This document shows positions 44,564 to 51,380 of a stretch of 64,000 bases of DNA, one piece after another; the stretch's first letter is position 1; the number at the start of each line of letters is the position of its first letter. The position numbers were made by a program, and so were the translations under genes. The stretch spans positions 930,001 to 994,000 of the forward strand of contig NZ_CP048405.1 of NCBI RefSeq assembly GCF_014084125.1, given 5' to 3'. The notes under the pieces were generated by a model. It was not told the DNA's origin. It ran no database searches and was given only the letters and a program-made list of their open reading frames with translations. Source of the stretch: Streptacidiphilus sp. PB12-B1b (lineage in GTDB: Bacteria > Actinomycetota > Actinomycetes > Streptomycetales > Streptomycetaceae).

Positions 44564-44795
44564 TATCTCTCCCACGGAACGGCCGCTGTGTGCGGGGCGG
44601 CCTCACGGGTGGTCGTCCCCCCGTGTTCCGAGGGGTAAACCCGATTTCGATAATAATGACCGGATAATCCGACGGGCCGGGTCGCCGCCGGGCCGTCCAA
44701 GCGGTGGGCCGTCCCCGGTGCGGTCGTCCCCTACCGGTACCGTTCGGTGCGAGAAGTACGCGCAGCACCGAGGCGGGGCGAAGGGGCGAACGGCG

Positions 44796-46136
44796 ATGTC
44801 GGGCGAGGGGCGAGAGGGACTCAGGGCCTGGGGGGCCTCCGCCGCGCGGCGGATCTCCGAGCGGTTGGAGCGCGGCCGCCGGGCGGCCGAGCACGACATC
44901 CACCAGGCCGAGCACCGCAACGACCCGCCGCCGGTGCACCCCGCGCCCGTGCTCTCCGATCCGCACGGCGGCCCGGCCTTCCCGGCCCTGGCGACCAGCC
45001 CCAGCGAGGCCGTGCCCTGGAGCCTGCGGGTCTCCGCCGAGATCATCTGGCGGCTGCTGATCGTCGGCGCGGGCCTGTACGTCCTGTTCCAGGTTGTGCA
45101 GACGCTGCGCATCGTCGCCTTCGCCTTCGTCGCGGCCCTGCTCATCAGCGCGTTGCTGCAGCCCACCGTCTCCCGGCTGCAGCGCCTCGGCCTGCCCCGG
45201 GCCCTGGCCGCCGCGGTCACCTTCGTCGGCGGCCTGATCGGGATAGGGCTGGTCGGCTGGTTCGTCGGCTGGCAGGTCAGCACCAACCTGGGCGAGGTCA
45301 CCACCAAGGTCCAGTCCGGCATCGCGCAGATCCACGACTGGCTGACGCACGGCCCCATGCACCTGACGGACACCCAGATCAACCAGTTCGTCAAGCAGTT
45401 GCAGAACGCCGTGGGCTCCAACAGCGACCAGATCACCTCCTTCGGCTTCTCCACCGTCGGCATCGTCATCGAGATCGTGACCGGGGTGTTCCTGGCCGCG
45501 TTCTGCACCTTCTTCCTGATCTACGACGGCGCCCGGATCTGGGGCTGGCTGCTGAAGCTGTTCCCGCCCACCGCCCGGATCGCCATGGCCGGCGCCGGCC
45601 CCCGGGCCTGGTCCACGCTGAGCGCCTACGTCCGCGGGACCGTCCTGGTCGCCTTCATCGACTCGGTCTCCATCGGCATCGGCATCTTCCTGCTCGGGGT
45701 GCCGCTGGCGCTGCCGGTCTCCGTGCTGATCTTCCTCGGCGCGTTCGTGCCGCTGGTCGGCGCGCTGGTCACCGGGACGATCGCGGTGCTGATCGCGCTG
45801 GTCACCAAGAGCGTCTTCACCGCGGCGATGGTGCTGGTGGTGCTGCTGGCCGTGCAGCAGATCGAAGGGCACCTGCTGCAGCCGCTGATCCTCGGCCGCG
45901 CGGTGCGGGTCCACCCCATCGCGGTGGTGCTGTCGGTCACGGTCGGCTCGATCATCGGCGGCATCGGCGGCGCCATCGTCGCCGTCCCGCTGGTCGCGGT
46001 CACCAACACCACCGTCGGCTACCTCAAGGCCCGCCAGCGCGCGGGCGAGGACGTCCGGGTCGCCCTGCTCACCGCCCAGGCCGAGGCCCGCGCCACCGCC
46101 GCCGACACGGGCGAGGCCCCGACCCCGGAGAGCTGA
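44796..46136 (+). CDS. AI-2E family (PerM/TqsA-like) permease
   Basis: 446-aa membrane protein with about eight hydrophobic segments. The first ~75 residues are hydrophilic and His/Asp-rich. Family hallmarks: the helix pair starting LIVGAGLYVLFQVV, FVAALLISALLQPTVSRLQRLGLP, the amphipathic central region, GAFVPLVGALVTG, and the C-terminal IEGHLLQPLILGRAVRVHP. Members export small molecules or act as Na+/H+ antiporters; cargo here is unknown. ATG 44796 follows GAAGGGG; the upstream frame start at 44718 is not supported. Confidence 0.9.
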   Translation: MSGEGREGLRAWGASAARRISERLERGRRAAEHDIHQAEHRNDPPPVHPAPVLSDPHGGPAFPALATSPSEAVPWSLRVSAEIIWRLLIVGAGLYVLFQVVQTLRIVAFAFVAALLISALLQPTVSRLQRLGLPRALAAAVTFVGGLIGIGLVGWFVGWQVSTNLGEVTTKVQSGIAQIHDWLTHGPMHLTDTQINQFVKQLQNAVGSNSDQITSFGFSTVGIVIEIVTGVFLAAFCTFFLIYDGARIWGWLLKLFPPTARIAMAGAGPRAWSTLSAYVRGTVLVAFIDSVSIGIGIFLLGVPLALPVSVLIFLGAFVPLVGALVTGTIAVLIALVTKSVFTAAMVLVVLLAVQQIEGHLLQPLILGRAVRVHPIAVVLSVTVGSIIGGIGGAIVAVPLVAVTNTTVGYLKARQRAGEDVRVALLTAQAEARATAADTGEAPTPES

Positions 46137-46179: not shown

Positions 46180-46719
46180 CTACGCCTGCGCGGGCAGGCG
46201 TCCCTCGGCCTCCAGCGTCACCGCGACGGCCTGGACCACCGAGGCGATCCGGATCGCGGCCTGGACGGTCTCCCGCTCCACGCCCGCCTTGCGCAGCACC
46301 TGCTCGTGCGAGTCCAGGCACTGGCCGCAGCCGTTGATCGCGGAGACCGCGAGGCACCACAGCTCGAAGTCGACCTTCTCCACGCCCGGGTTGCCGATGA
46401 CGTTCATCCGCAGCCCGGCCCGCAGCGTCCCGTACTCCTTGTCGGAGAGCAGGTGCAGCGTGCGGTAGTACACGTTGTTCATGGCCATCATCGCGGCGGC
46501 GGACTTGGCCGCGGTGTACGCCTCCGGGCTCAGCTCCGCCCTGGCCTGCGGCTCCAGCTCAGCCAGCACCCGCTCGCCGCGCGAGGCGATCGCGCAGGCC
46601 AGCACCATGCCCCAGAGCTGCTGGGCCGGCAGGTCGGAGTTGCCGACGACCGAGCCGAGGTTCAGCTTCAGGTCCTTGGCGTACTCGGGCAGCGCGGCCT
46701 TGAGTTCATCGAGAGCCAC
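46180..46719 (-). CDS. ahpD: Alkyl hydroperoxide reductase AhpD
   Basis: Carboxymuconolactone-decarboxylase-fold disulfide reductase that recharges AhpC. 179 aa. The active-site pair is in [15 protein letters not shown] (CxxC with the following His), preceded by [12 protein letters not shown] and the [11 protein letters not shown] helix. GTG 46719 begins 4 bp after the ahpC stop with no clear ribosome-binding site, so translation is coupled to ahpC. Second gene of the ahpC-ahpD operon controlled by divergent oxyR. Confidence 0.94.
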
Positions 46720-46723
46720 CGCG

Positions 46724-47278
46724 TCACTCGCCCGCGAGCAGGGCGACCGGGTCGAGCGTGGTCTCGCCCTTGTTCCAGTTGCACGGGCACAGCTCGTCGG
46801 TCTGCAGCGCGTCCAGCACCCGCAGCACCTCCTTGGGGTTGCGGCCCACGGAACCGGCGGTGACCATGACGAACTGGATCTCGTTGTTGGGGTCCACGAT
46901 GAACACGGCGCGCTGCGCGGTGCCGTCCTCGCCCTCGACGCCGCACTCCCGCATCAGCTCGTGCTTGACGTCCGCGAGCATCGGGAAGGGCAGGTCGCGC
47001 AGGTCCTTGTGGTCCTTGCGCCAGGCGTGGTGCACGTACTCGGAGTCGCCGGAGACGCCGAGGACCTGCGCGTCGCGGTCGGCGAACTCCTCGTTCAGCT
47101 TGCCGAAGGCGGCGATCTCGGTGGGACACACGAAGGTGAAGTCCATCGGCCAGAAGAAGACGATCCGCCACTTGCCCTCGTAGGACTTGTGGTTGATCTG
47201 GGCGAAGGCCCGGTCCGCGTCGAGGTCGACGCAGGCGTTCAGGTCGTACGCGGGGAACTTGTCACCGATGGTGAGCAC
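46724..47278 (-). CDS. ahpC: Alkyl hydroperoxide reductase AhpC (peroxiredoxin)
   Basis: Two-cysteine peroxiredoxin of 184 aa that reduces H2O2 and organic peroxides. The peroxidatic Cys is in [14 protein letters not shown]; the C-terminal resolving Cys in [11 protein letters not shown], an extra CPC arrangement as in mycobacterial-type AhpC. GTG 47278 has AAGGAG at a 6-nt distance. Reduced by AhpD. Expression should be induced by peroxide through OxyR binding in the 141-bp divergent promoter region. Confidence 0.95.
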
Positions 47279-47373
47279 GTTCGCTCCTTCTTGGTTCTGA
47301 TTGAGGGGTTTCGTCCGGGTCTCACCGGGGTCGCCAGGGGCCGCAGACTGCCCTACCGTGACACATCGCGTAC

Positions 47374-47399
47374 TGATCAGTGAAATAGCTACACTGGAT
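47374..47399. promoter_or_regulatory. Candidate OxyR site and oxyR promoter
   Basis: CAGTG-AAATAGCTA-CACTG (47378-47396) is a symmetric LysR-type element with the palindromic centre TAGCTA. TACACT (47390-47395) can serve as the oxyR -10, so the element overlaps the oxyR promoter, as expected for autoregulation and divergent activation of ahpC. Confidence 0.6.
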
Positions 47400-47419
47400 C
47401 CCATTGATCGGAGGAAGTT

Positions 47420-48334
47420 ATCAGCAAGGCCCGCACTCCCACGCCCGCCCAGCTCAGGGCCTTCGTCGCGGTCGTGGAGCACCGCCACTTCCGCGACGCC
47501 GCCGCCGCGATCGGAATGAGCCAGCCCGCCCTGTCCGGGGCCGTCGCCGCGCTGGAGGACGGACTGGGGGCGCAGCTGGTCGAGCGCACCACCCGCAAGG
47601 TCATCATCACCCCGCTGGGGGAGCGCGTCGCCGACCACGCGCGCGGCGTGCTCGCCGGACTGCACGCCCTCACCGAGGAGGTCGAGGCGTCCCGGCTGCC
47701 CTTCACCGGCCCGCTGCACCTGGGCGTCATCCCCACCGTCGCCCCCTACCTGCTGCCGACCGTGCTCCGGCTGGCCCGCGACAGCTACCCCGAGCTGGAA
47801 CTCCACATCCACGAGGAGCGCACCGCCCGGCTGCTCGACGGCCTCGGCTCCGGGAGGCTGGACGTCCTGGTCCTGGCCCTCCCCGGCGGCCCCGGGATGA
47901 CCGACATCCCGCTGTACGACGAGGACTTCGTCCTGGTCACCCCGACCGGCCACGGGCTCGCCGGGCGCACCGGCGTCCCCCGCGACCTGCTGCTGGACCT
48001 GGACGTCCTGCTGCTCGAAGAGGGCCACTGCCTGCGCGACCAGGCCCTGGAGCTGTGCCGGGAGGCCCCCGGCGGCACCCGCGCCGCCGGGCTGCCCACC
48101 CTGGTGCAGCTGGTCGCCGGGGGTCTGGGCGTGACGCTGCTCCCGGCCGCCGCCGTCGCGGTCGAGACCGGCCGCTCCGACCGGCTCGCCACCACCCGCT
48201 TCGCCGCCCCCGCCCCCGGCCGCCGGATCGGCCTCACCCACCGCCCCGGCTCCGCCCGCACCCCCGAGTACCACCGCCTCGCCGCCGCCCTCCGCGACGC
48301 CCTCCAGGCCCTGCCGGTGCGGCTAGTCTGCTGA
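47420..48334 (+). CDS. oxyR: OxyR hydrogen-peroxide-sensing LysR regulator, apparent AUC start
   Basis: 304-aa LysR-type activator of peroxide genes. The HTH (AQLRAFVAVVEHRHFRDAAA, then MSQPALSGAVAALEDGL) and the redox Cys pair are intact: Cys204 and Cys213 in GHCLRDQALELCRE. There is no ATG, GTG or TTG in frame between the TGA at 47405-47407 and GTG 47474, yet the first HTH helix lies before 47474. ATC 47420 is preceded by GGAGG with 5-nt spacing and is the only well-placed initiation site. If GTG 47474 were used, helix 1 would be lost. A sequence error is the alternative. It is followed after 15 bp by the ATPase gene. Confidence 0.85.
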   Translation: MSKARTPTPAQLRAFVAVVEHRHFRDAAAAIGMSQPALSGAVAALEDGLGAQLVERTTRKVIITPLGERVADHARGVLAGLHALTEEVEASRLPFTGPLHLGVIPTVAPYLLPTVLRLARDSYPELELHIHEERTARLLDGLGSGRLDVLVLALPGGPGMTDIPLYDEDFVLVTPTGHGLAGRTGVPRDLLLDLDVLLLEEGHCLRDQALELCREAPGGTRAAGLPTLVQLVAGGLGVTLLPAAAVAVETGRSDRLATTRFAAPAPGRRIGLTHRPGSARTPEYHRLAAALRDALQALPVRLVC

Positions 48335-48349
48335 CAGGAGGTGGCGCAG

Positions 48350-49684
48350 GTGTACCTGTCGCGTGTACGGATCGACGGCATCAAGGGTTTCCGGGGCTCG
48401 CGGGCGGTGGATCTCACGCTGACCCGCCCGGACGGCAGCCACGCGGGCTGGACCGTCCTGGCCGGACGCAACAGCTCGGGCAAGACCAGCCTGCTCCAGG
48501 CCGTCGCCGTCGCCCTGCTCTCCCCGGCCCAGGCGTACCCGCTCGTCCCCGACCTCCCCTCCTGGCGCTCGGCCGACCCCGGCCGGATCGAGCTGACCCT
48601 CGCCGGGACCGGGGACGCCGCCGCCACCGTCAGCGGCCGGATCGACTCCTGCGCGGAGCAGGGCGACATCGACGTCACCTGCACCTGGGTGGTGACCCCC
48701 GGGCGGGAGCAGATCCGGCCGAACGTCGTCTGGGAGCGCACCGGGTCGGCGCCGACGGCCGACGGCGCCCCGGCGGGCCCGTTCTCCGACCCCGAATGGG
48801 AGTTCGCCCTGCTCGGCACGGTCTCGGGCTTCGGCCCCTTCCGCCGGATGTCCGAGAACGCCCGCCGGGACGGCCGCGCCTTCACCAGCCTCTTCAGCGA
48901 GGACGCCGCCCTGACCGAGGGCGTCGCCTGGCTCGTGGACCTGGACCACCGCAGCCTGGAGGGCAACACCGGCGCGCAGGAGACCAGGGACGCGGTCATC
49001 GCGCTGCTCGCCGACGGCCTGCTCCCGGACGGCCTCCAGGTCGCCGGGGTCTCCTCCGACGGGCTCTCGGTGCGGGCCGCCGACGGCAGCGAGTTCCCGC
49101 TCGCCGAGATGAGCCAGGGCGTCCGCACCGCCGTGGCCCTCGCCGTCTCCCTGGTCTGGGAGCTGGCCCAGGACGACCCCGGCACCTGGTTCGGACGCCA
49201 CGACGGCCACGTCGCCGTCGTCCGCCCCGGCATCGTCCTGATCGACGAGGTCGACGCCCACCTGCACGTCACCTGGCAGCAGCGGATCGGCTACTGGCTC
49301 ACCTCCCGCTTCCCCCGGGTCCAGTTCGTCGTCACCACCCACAGCCCCTACATCTGCCAGGCCGCCGACCCCGGCGGCCTCATCCGCCTCGGCTCCGCCA
49401 CCGACGGCACCGCCCCCGAGGTCGTCGACGAGGAGCTGTACCGAAGGGTCGTCTACGGCAGTGGCGACGACGCGATCATGTCGGAGCTGTTCGGCCTGGA
49501 GACCCCCTACTCGGCGGTCGCCGAGGACGCCCGCCGTCGGATCGGCGATCTGGAGGGCCGGGTGCTGAGCGGCGACGCCTCCGGGGACGAGCTCGCCGAG
49601 TACGAGGCGCTGAGCAGCAGACTCAACAGCTCCCTCAGCGCCCGGGTCGACGAGGTGGCCGGCCGACTGGCGCGCGGCCGGTGA
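48350..49684 (+). CDS. AAA ATPase, PtuA-like (Septu-type defence)
   Basis: 444-aa ATPase of the AAA_21/OLD-like group. Walker A GRNSSGKT at residues 39-46. A signature-like helix MSQGVRTAVALAVSLVWELA is followed by Walker B VLIDEVDAHLH (residues 296-306) and the H-loop VVTTHSP (327-333). No coiled-coil insertion of SMC length is seen. GTG 48350 is chosen over GTG 48341 because AGGAGGT (48336-48342) then has correct spacing. The start lies 15 bp after oxyR and the stop overlaps the HNH gene (GTGA). ATPase plus HNH nuclease is the two-gene layout of Septu (PtuA-PtuB). Alternative: an uncharacterised genome-maintenance pair. Confidence 0.8.
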   Translation: MYLSRVRIDGIKGFRGSRAVDLTLTRPDGSHAGWTVLAGRNSSGKTSLLQAVAVALLSPAQAYPLVPDLPSWRSADPGRIELTLAGTGDAAATVSGRIDSCAEQGDIDVTCTWVVTPGREQIRPNVVWERTGSAPTADGAPAGPFSDPEWEFALLGTVSGFGPFRRMSENARRDGRAFTSLFSEDAALTEGVAWLVDLDHRSLEGNTGAQETRDAVIALLADGLLPDGLQVAGVSSDGLSVRAADGSEFPLAEMSQGVRTAVALAVSLVWELAQDDPGTWFGRHDGHVAVVRPGIVLIDEVDAHLHVTWQQRIGYWLTSRFPRVQFVVTTHSPYICQAADPGGLIRLGSATDGTAPEVVDEELYRRVVYGSGDDAIMSELFGLETPYSAVAEDARRRIGDLEGRVLSGDASGDELAEYEALSSRLNSSLSARVDEVAGRLARGR

Positions 49685-50397
49685 TCCCGCTCCGGCGTCC
49701 GCCTCTGGAAAGGGAGTTGCAGCGCCGCTTGGCCGCTCGCACCACCGCCCTTTCCCGCCAGGGCGCGTCCGGCGACCGCGCCCGTCGCGCCTGGTCCAAC
49801 GCCGATGTGTTACGACGCCAACTGCGAGAGGTGCTGGAGGGCATGGCGCCGGGCGTCCAGCGCTGCATGTACTGCGGCGACAGCCAGGGATCCTCCATCG
49901 ACCACTTCGAGCCGCTCAGCCTTGCCCCGCTCAAGGCGTTCGCCTGGATGAACCATCTGCTGGCCTGCACCCACTGCAACAGCAACCACAAGCGCGACCG
50001 CTTCCCGGTGGACGCGGAGGGCCACTGCCTGCTGGTCGACCCGACCAGTGAGGACCCCGCACTGCACCTCCAACTCGTCCTGCGCACGGGGGAGTACCAG
50101 GCCCGGACGCCCAAGGGGCAGGCCACCATCGAGGTTTTCGGACTGGCCCGGCCGTCCCTCGAACGCGGACGGGCCAAGGCGTTCGTCCGCTGCCGGTCGA
50201 TGCTCCGGGACCTCGGCGGGCTGATCGAGGCGGGCGAGGACGACGAGGCCATGGAGGTCGCCGAATCGCTCCGGGTGCAACCGTTCGCCGACGTGCTGCA
50301 CGCCATGCAGACCGTCCAGGACCGGCCGGGAGCAGCGGTCGTCCTCGGCGCCCGGGAGCTGGAGAGCCTGCGGTGGCTCACCGTGCTGCTCGCATAG
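49681..50397 (+). CDS. HNH endonuclease, PtuB-like (Septu-type defence), TTA codon
   Basis: 238-aa nuclease. Zinc/HNH residues: Cys62 and Cys65 (RCMYCGDSQ), Asp74-His75 (SSIDHFEP), Asn91 (MNHLLAC), Cys96, Cys99 and Asn100 (CTHCNSNHKRDRFP). This IDHF...N...CxxCN layout, followed by LLVDPTSEDPALHL, is that of PtuB/TIGR02646-like nucleases. GTG 49681 overlaps the ATPase stop by 4 bp. Codon 44 (49810-49812) is TTA, so the nuclease should be made only when the bldA tRNA is active. Codon use at the 5' end is less GC-optimised than in the ATPase gene. Confidence 0.82.
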   Translation: MIPLRRPPLERELQRRLAARTTALSRQGASGDRARRAWSNADVLRRQLREVLEGMAPGVQRCMYCGDSQGSSIDHFEPLSLAPLKAFAWMNHLLACTHCNSNHKRDRFPVDAEGHCLLVDPTSEDPALHLQLVLRTGEYQARTPKGQATIEVFGLARPSLERGRAKAFVRCRSMLRDLGGLIEAGEDDEAMEVAESLRVQPFADVLHAMQTVQDRPGAAVVLGARELESLRWLTVLLA

Positions 50398-50408
50398 GGT
50401 GCGTGACC

Positions 50409-51380
50409 ATGAGCAACCTTGAGACCGCCCCGCAGGCGCGGGTCTGCGGCGGGCGGCAGGACGTGTCGGGCACGCCGGTGCACGAGCTGCTGACGGGCAA
50501 GCAGGTCCCGCTCGGTGAGAGCACCGTGGTCCGCCGGCTGCTGCCGAACCTCGGCCGCCGCATGATCGGCGCCTGGTGCTTCGTCGACCACTACGGCCCG
50601 GACGACATCACCGACGAGCCCGGGATGCAGGTGGCCCCGCACCCGCACACCGGGCTGCAGACCGTCAGCTGGCTGCACGACGGCCAGGTGCAGCACCGCG
50701 ACAGCGTCGGCAGCGTGGCCACTGTCCGGCCGCGCGAGCTGGGGCTGATGACGGCGGGCCGCGCCATCGCGCACTCCGAGCAGTCCCCGCGCGACCACGG
50801 CCCGCTGCTGCACGGCGCGCAACTGTGGGTCGCGCTCCCCGGCGAGCACCGGCACACCGAGCCGCACTTCGAGCACCACCCGGTGCTGCCCGAGGTCGCC
50901 GCCCCCGGCCTGCACGCCACCGTCATCCTGGGCGAGCTGGACGGCGCACTCTCGCCCGGCGCCACCTACTCGCCGCTGGTCGGCGCGGACCTCACCCTCG
51001 CCGAGGGCGCCTCGGCCCGGCTCCCGCTCGACCCCGACTTCGAGTACGCGGTGCTGGCCATGGCGGGCGCCGCCGACGTCGACGGCGTCCGGGTCGAGCC
51101 CGGCGCGCTGCTGTACCTCGGCTGCGGCCGCACCGGGCTGCCGCTGCGCGCCGTCACCGACAGCAGCCTGCTGCTGCTCGGCGGCGAGCCCTTCGAGGAG
51201 AAGATCGTCATGTTCTGGAACTTCGTGGCCCGCACCGGCGAGGAGATCGCCGAGGCCCGCGACGCCTGGAACAGCCCGTCCGCCGGCTCCTTCGGCGAGG
51301 TCCACGGCTACCAGGGCGCCCGCCTGCTCGCCCCGCCGCTCCCCCCGGTCCCGCTCAAGCCCCGCGGCCGCGCCCGCTGA
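50409..51380 (+). CDS. Pirin-family bicupin
   Basis: 323-aa protein with the pirin double cupin. The metal-site motif in the N-terminal cupin is HPHTGLQTVSWLHDGQVQH, and RAIAHSEQSP follows; the C-terminal cupin contains PFEEKIVMFWNFV. Some bacterial pirins have quercetinase activity or bind central-metabolism enzymes; role here unknown. ATG 50409 is used. It starts 11 bp after the HNH gene, so it may belong to the same transcript, although pirin is not known as part of Septu systems. Confidence 0.9.
   Translation: MSNLETAPQARVCGGRQDVSGTPVHELLTGKQVPLGESTVVRRLLPNLGRRMIGAWCFVDHYGPDDITDEPGMQVAPHPHTGLQTVSWLHDGQVQHRDSVGSVATVRPRELGLMTAGRAIAHSEQSPRDHGPLLHGAQLWVALPGEHRHTEPHFEHHPVLPEVAAPGLHATVILGELDGALSPGATYSPLVGADLTLAEGASARLPLDPDFEYAVLAMAGAADVDGVRVEPGALLYLGCGRTGLPLRAVTDSSLLLLGGEPFEEKIVMFWNFVARTGEEIAEARDAWNSPSAGSFGEVHGYQGARLLAPPLPPVPLKPRGRAR

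Follow-up and report, generated by a model that had tools for sequence, protein, structure and literature searches.

Genes for defence against phages are usually viewed as cargo of genomic islands with fast turnover. Among such systems, Septu is formed by an ATPase, PtuA, and an HNH nuclease, PtuB, and PtuA-PtuB effectors are also found in retrons I-A (Ec78/Eco7, Ec83). According to PMC13096335, immunity in a characterised Septu system is abolished by mutation of the PtuA Walker motifs or of PtuB residues H75/N91, and the target is tRNA-Tyr, cleaved in the variable loop; PMC11555353 describes the Septu system of E. coli ATCC25922 as targeting nicked DNA. Here we describe a ptuA-ptuB pair (ptuAB) situated directly behind the peroxide regulator gene oxyR in a stretch of 64,000 nucleotides of Streptacidiphilus sp. 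PB12-B1b (contig NZ_CP048405.1, positions 930,001 to 994,000 of the forward strand), to which we refer as the window. The window proteins themselves are ordinary members of the PtuA and PtuB families; what is new is that they are placed at a core stress locus and that some relatives have a reduced PtuA. The pair and its motifs are located as follows, in window coordinates:

48350 to 49684, + strand: ptuA, ABC/SMC-type ATPase of 444 amino acids (aa) with a GTG start (PADLOC, PDB profile and fold matches)
49681 to 50397, + strand: ptuB, HNH nuclease of 238 aa (PADLOC and PDB fold matches)
48336 to 48341, + strand: ribosome-binding site of ptuA, AGGAGG (sequence)
49681 to 49684, + strand: GTGA shared by the end of ptuA and the start of ptuB, a 4-bp overlap (sequence)
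48464 to 48490, + strand: PtuA Walker A, GRNSSGKTS, residues 39-47 (motif alignment)
49106 to 49123, + strand: PtuA ABC-signature-like EMSQGV, the commonest form in relatives being EMSDGY (motif alignment)
49235 to 49267, + strand: PtuA Walker B, VLIDEVDAHLH, residues 296-306, with predicted catalytic Glu300 (motif alignment)
49334 to 49351, + strand: PtuA H-loop, TTHSPY, residues 329-334 (motif alignment)
49864 to 50007, + strand: PtuB HNH core, CMYC...DHFEP...N...CNSN..KRDRFP (alignment and motif)

The start of ptuA is 15 bp past the oxyR stop codon (48332-48334). A second GTG is available at 48341, and alignment favours 48350, since 22 of 22 aligned homologues open with M-Y. The 4-bp overlap with ptuB recurs in 67 of 80 named relatives. 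As judged by alignment and motif, PtuB has CMYC, the DH pair (H75), N91 and CNSN-K, and all of the expected catalytic residues (Walker A and B, HNH His and Asn) are present in the pair; Glu300 we take to be catalytic from general knowledge of ABC ATPases. The G+C content at third codon positions is 0.969 in ptuA, similar to the neighbouring genes, and lower in ptuB (0.891). A first-pass annotation of this DNA had described the ATPase motifs, a PtuB-like HNH layout, the 15-bp gap with its ribosome-binding site and the 4-bp overlap, all of which are indeed read in the sequence.

That annotation had also proposed Septu for the pair, an assignment that we regard as firm at the level of sequence and structure models because the profile matches are nearly full-length, the best PDB profile and fold matches are PtuA or PtuB chains, and the motifs are intact. 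In PADLOC, PtuA matches PtuA1 (PDLC00269) with 436 bits and E 3.9e-131, over residues 4-444 of the 447-aa frame and positions 1-445 of the 446 in the profile, and PtuB matches PtuB1 (PDLC00317) with 313 bits and E 5.7e-94; these matches span nearly the whole length of both proteins. Pfam gives AAA_21 on PtuA, and HNH on PtuB at 21.1 bits, just below the cut-off of 21.4. Against the PDB, a PtuA family profile built on 22 homologues has 8ee4 (PtuA) on top (E 1.7e-28), followed by retron PtuA chains, and a PtuB profile has retron PtuB chains on top (E 3.4e-11) and a weak match to Septu PtuB 8ee7 (E 0.0072). Moreover, the AlphaFold2 model of PtuA (predicted local distance difference test, pLDDT, 79; predicted template-modelling score, pTM, 0.82) finds the E. 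coli Septu complex 8eea as its top fold match (E 2.9e-16, template-modelling score about 0.54), and each of the 50 fold matches listed comes from PtuA, Septu or retron entries. The model of PtuB (pLDDT 94, pTM 0.88) has eight PDB fold matches with E <= 0.001, all of them chains of Septu or retron I-A complexes.

Thus, the window pair resembles E. coli PtuAB (8ee4/8eea) in its two-gene order, ATPase then HNH nuclease, and in its motifs and fold, and differs from it in belonging to an actinobacterial subfamily with 18% identity in the structural alignment and in its site behind oxyR. The retron I-A effectors resemble window PtuB in profile and fold, whereas the window site, between oxyR and pirin, leaves no room for a retron RNA. 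Membership in retron I-A (Ec78) was rejected: the NCBIfam retron models give 83 bits for PtuA against a cut-off of 500 and 27 bits for PtuB against 150, and no reverse transcriptase gene was found beside the pair, that is, in the 15 bp before ptuA or the 11 bp between ptuB and pirin (the rest of the window was not searched).

The surroundings of the pair form a conserved locus, here called ahpDC-oxyR, in which the names AI2E, ahpD, ahpC and, in other genomes, fumC are presumed:

44718 to 46136, + strand: AI2E-family permease gene, bordering the conserved locus on the left (synteny marker)
46180 to 46719, - strand: ahpD-like gene of the carboxymuconolactone decarboxylase family (Pfam PF02627)
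46724 to 47278, - strand: ahpC-like peroxiredoxin gene (position and conservation)
47474 to 48334, + strand: oxyR from its first canonical start, the protein probably beginning at 47420 (Pfam LysR_substrate and HTH_1)
50409 to 51380, + strand: pirin gene, right border of the site (Pfam Pirin)

A census of 394 Streptomycetaceae genomes gave 68 with a ptuA match at E 1e-40 or better, and the 75 ptuA places in them were all examined. Three layouts were defined: A, behind oxyR with a PtuA of at least 401 aa; B, between the AI2E gene and ahpD; and C, behind oxyR with a shorter PtuA. The automatic labels were A for 5 places, B for 13, C for 26, a category of its own for genome G005, an inverted arrangement near AI2E or fumC for 2 (group g6), and elsewhere for 28. 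By these labels 45 of the 75 copies are at the ahpDC-oxyR locus, or 46 when counting G180 (L255), which begins at a contig end and was labelled elsewhere, although it falls in the C clade of the PtuAB tree discussed below; G143 (L227, 401 aa), labelled A, also falls in the C clade. Group g1 includes Streptacidiphilus jeojiense (G005), g14 is Kitasatospora, G024 is Streptomyces sp. SCUT-3 and G032 is Actinacidiphila soli (matching contigs, identical proteins). The 70 Kitasatospora genomes with an oxyR match have ptuAB at the locus in 41 cases (13 B, 28 C) and lack it there in 29, five of which carry a copy elsewhere (G095, G116, G166, G184, G236). The oxyR-pirin interval was surveyed in g1: among its 14 genomes, four Streptacidiphilus genomes, one per species, share ptuAB at this place, and in seven without the pair pirin directly follows oxyR. 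One of the four, G005 (L022/L143), keeps ptuAB although its stretch from AI2E to pirin lacks ahpDC-oxyR; its genome has no oxyR match at E 1e-40. As for the other three genomes of this group, in G007 (76% complete) a fragmented oxyR precedes pirin and ptuAB lies at another place, and the genome search found no oxyR match in G001 and G012. The first-pass annotation considered it unusual for such a pair to be inserted into a core locus. This is indeed a core locus, but the pair recurs there and is found throughout some subclades, so that it is no one-off.

Beyond the census, 80 named loci were fetched by PtuA, with window PtuB as the query for ptuB. The latter follows ptuA in 79 of them, the exception being L207, in which the contig ends 247 bp past ptuA. 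Locus markers are found in six (L143, L145, L147, L160, L162, L197), all of which repeat census copies; in the available stretches of the other 74, several of them short, there was no ahpC, AI2E, pirin or fumC homologue and no oxyR with at least 50% identity. The ptuAB family moves, since full-length copies occur on four Streptomyces or Kitasatospora plasmids. In Actinacidiphila soli (L026, 8319-12047), ptuAB immediately precedes a catalase gene and sits, in inverted order, between fumC and AI2E; the genome has no oxyR match at E 1e-40.

Two trees bear on the history of the locus. The first, built with the AI2E, AhpD, AhpC and OxyR proteins, used 83 of the 88 loci given (L022, L255, L095, L097 and L098 had too few markers; the oxyR loci L106-L114 were not included). 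Of the 29 Kitasatospora loci that lack ptuAB it covers 20, and the remaining nine are known by synteny only. In this tree, layout B is one clade of 13 (support 100) and the three included Streptacidiphilus A loci are another (100), while the 27 C loci share one part of Kitasatospora (98) with the 20 empty loci, themselves a clade (99). Every locus of the B clade has the pair, and so does every C-side locus that is not in the empty clade. Five layout changes suffice over the 83 loci, compared to a mean of 36.9 in shuffles, from which it follows that the layouts are inherited vertically and that ptuAB are old residents. The second tree, of PtuAB, has 140 rows, leaving out L235 (no ptuB), L243 (short) and 13 duplicates. 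It recovers three clades, each with support 100, namely B, C joined by L227 and L255, and the four Streptacidiphilus copies, and it groups B with copies mostly from other places (98). A minimum of four changes between the locus and elsewhere is required (five if the g6 pair counts as locus), at least three of them forced by the starred branches. Vertical inheritance of the layouts, together with the minimum of three changes of place in the PtuAB tree, makes it probable that ptuAB reached the ahpDC-oxyR locus several times, with two arrivals as the safer minimum. Septu is thus resident at a core stress locus and passed on vertically there, and we think that this neighbourhood is probably a favoured place for the pair.

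Another account of the placement, compatible with the other readings, is that the gaps flanking ahpDC-oxyR tolerate insertions with no functional tie. Of the 29 Kitasatospora loci that lack ptuAB, 24 have genes for a TetR regulator and an MMPL transporter in the gap that follows oxyR (neither was found in L260, L263, L264, L271 and L283), five (L265, L274, L277, L281, L287) have an alpha/beta hydrolase gene between AI2E and ahpD, and L260 has an integrase-domain (rve) gene beside AI2E. The lengths and sides of the gaps also vary between layouts. Tolerant gaps fit less well with a rough binomial estimate, which puts at 4e-6 the chance that, out of 20 random arrivals in an 8-Mb genome, 3 hit a 12-kb target, assuming uniform insertion and guessed counts. 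Moreover, PADLOC recognised no known defence protein among eight non-ptuAB neighbourhood proteins, a representative set that does not cover all genes at the 29 empty Kitasatospora sites, yet ptuAB probably arrived several times. We give this neutral account somewhat less than an even chance. The same scan gives no support to a general defence hotspot.

The best explanation overall, which we consider likely, is that of a Septu system behind oxyR, read on a shared transcript, with a phage-triggered PtuB, at a locus reached repeatedly. One mRNA from the oxyR promoter would probably carry oxyR, ptuA and ptuB, as the 15-bp gap and the 4-bp overlap suggest. Co-transcription is plausible, and a consensus scan of 47200-50700 detected no sigma-70-like promoter or terminator, a weak test in Streptomycetaceae. 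PtuA would assemble and hold PtuB, and a phage-induced change would free the nuclease, which would cut nucleic acid and halt phage multiplication; this sequence of events is taken from the characterised Septu systems, and it is from family membership that we infer phage defence by the window pair. Its substrate may be nicked DNA, as published for one PtuAB, or tRNA-Tyr, as published for others. A rise of ptuAB expression by peroxide would be a possible benefit and no requirement. A link to peroxide would be attractive, and the placement of ptuAB at this locus allows a tie between immunity and oxidative stress to be put to the test. Our literature search found no paper with both Septu and oxyR; PtuA and OxyR appear together in PMC11013413, on an unrelated topic.

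Several observations weigh against this explanation or parts of it. Layout B, in 13 Kitasatospora genomes, has ptuAB on the other side of ahpDC-oxyR; since ptuAB in this layout and in G005 cannot rely on an oxyR transcript, an obligatory link of ptuAB to oxyR is disfavoured. Both trees are of a quick kind, with support that the tool itself rates lower, and the approximately unbiased tests against a single origin, on 40 chosen rows, are modest and use groups named after seeing the data: they reject a single clade of all locus copies (p 0.026) and, marginally, one of A and C (0.046) and one of the five A copies (0.036). Constraint on Streptacidiphilus ptuA appears moderate, because its ratio of nonsynonymous to synonymous substitution rates (dN/dS) is 0.49 (four copies, 6 pairs), close to that of copies elsewhere (0.48) and higher than in layout B (0.21), values by the NG86 (Nei-Gojobori) method from GC-rich genes and non-independent pairs that have meaning only relative to each other. 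The superposition of the PtuA model on 8eea is loose (root-mean-square deviation 12.4, 18% identity). Finally, a profile search of both proteins, which the first-pass annotation had proposed, puts mREase_IV models second to PtuA1 and PtuB1: PDLC03660 (327.5 bits) and PDLC03661 (260.3 bits) match both proteins.

These last matches are what suggests type IV (modification-dependent) restriction, in which the pair would cut incoming methylated DNA with no sensing of infection. We guess that ScoA3II+III of S. coelicolor (Sco3261-62) is a named case of the mREase_IV models. In vivo, that gene pair restricts DNA with 5-methylcytosine, according to PMC3874153, and to this extent it favours the idea. 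On the other hand, the PtuA1 and PtuB1 models score higher, and a Pfam scan of the window pair shows no modified-base-binding domain, so that we consider type IV restriction quite improbable.

The Septu reading of the window pair can be compared with the divergent copies of layout C. The 28 C-clade copies, from one Kitasatospora clade (L083, L115-L125, L227, L238, L239, L242, L244-L248, L250-L256), share with the window pair the gene order, the site behind oxyR, the 4-bp overlap and the intact PtuB motifs, and differ from it in PtuA, which is shortened and altered. It measures 297-401 residues (n=28), compared to medians of 439-454 elsewhere; L117 (297 aa) and L116 (309 aa) look frameshifted before Walker A, and the range is 307-401 without these two. 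In the middle of the protein (76-239), 39-108 of 164 positions are kept and the GYGPFRR region is largely lost. The frame of Walker A is intact in 26 of 28 copies, the signature is mostly LGDG or similar in place of MSDG, and the catalytic Glu is replaced by Asp in 22 of 28, whereas it is Glu in 112 of 112 other rows; the six C copies that keep Glu are 6 of the 7 rows of one subclade and also the longest. In contrast, PtuB keeps CMYC, IDHFEP and CNSN-K in 28 of 28. The relative dN/dS values for PtuA and PtuB are 0.65 and 0.47 in C, 0.21 and 0.38 in B, and 0.48 and 0.61 elsewhere, with oxyR at 0.20-0.28. Because of the shortening, the change of Glu to Asp and the dN/dS of 0.65 set against the kept PtuB motifs, the constraint on PtuA in layout C appears to have been relaxed or changed, with the motifs of the nuclease preserved. 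Alternatively, the whole pair may be decaying. The Kitasatospora PtuA proteins, shortened by degrees, form a natural series on what the ATPase is needed for.

There are two further proposals. One is that a Septu nuclease was repeatedly coupled to the peroxide locus and that the Kitasatospora form is domesticated, with a reduced ATPase, deprived of most of its middle lobe and in most copies of the catalytic Glu, as a scaffold for intact PtuB, acting as a peroxide-responsive host nuclease that is not phage-triggered; we hold this tentatively and find it rather doubtful. The other is a redox-linked host role in general, in which PtuAB was co-opted for quality control of peroxide-damaged DNA or tRNA and phage defence became secondary or was lost. 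The recurrent placement at ahpDC-oxyR, the occurrence of the pair in the whole B clade and in every C-side locus not in the empty clade, and the fact that layout C has an eroded PtuA next to a PtuB whose motifs are intact all agree with such a role, as do the catalase gene next to ptuAB in Actinacidiphila soli, whose genome lacks an oxyR match, and the eight scanned neighbourhood proteins, none of them known in defence. However, window PtuA is full-length with every motif, G005 retains ptuAB without ahpDC-oxyR at the site, and PtuB dN/dS in C is not below that in B. Besides, outside Streptomycetaceae no named locus has ahpC, or oxyR with at least 50% identity, in the available stretch, and ptuAB has long residence at other sites too, for instance in five Amycolatopsis loci with common neighbours. 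We think that a redox role is unlikely, and phage defence by an ordinary Septu pair continues to be our preferred interpretation for the window.

Some observations concern oxyR itself. Window OxyR scores 235 bits with the NCBIfam OxyR model, below its cut-off of 329, and has two cysteines nine residues apart. In the gap between ahpC and oxyR there is a conserved element with the following features:

47405 to 47423, + strand: TGAT-N11-ATCA, operator-like by eye (sequence conservation)
47410 to 47414, + strand: Shine-Dalgarno-like GGAGG inside the element
47420 to 47422, + strand: possible AUC start codon of oxyR inside the element

The start of oxyR seems to be an AUC inside TGAT-N11-ATCA. Among 105 distinct oxyR 5' regions, 23 are without the motif, and in 77 of the 82 with it the ATC is in frame and open into oxyR. 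These 77 regions have 18 linker lengths, 27 of them sharing one length, and 35 of the 77 contain no ATG, GTG or TTG before the helix-turn-helix. The phrase 'AUC start codon' together with Streptomyces or oxyR was not found among the literature matches listed.

Two minor observations concern copies in other places. Of the 95 ptuAB loci off ahpDC-oxyR, 30 (a raw count) encode within 6 kb of the pair a member of a family of small proteins, DUF397-like as judged by eye. Finally, one contig of 8986572 bases (G158:C1) has a short ptuA (213 aa) with ptuB about 84 kb from each of its ends (83851 and 8902255; L249 and L257), as expected for copies inside terminal inverted repeats.

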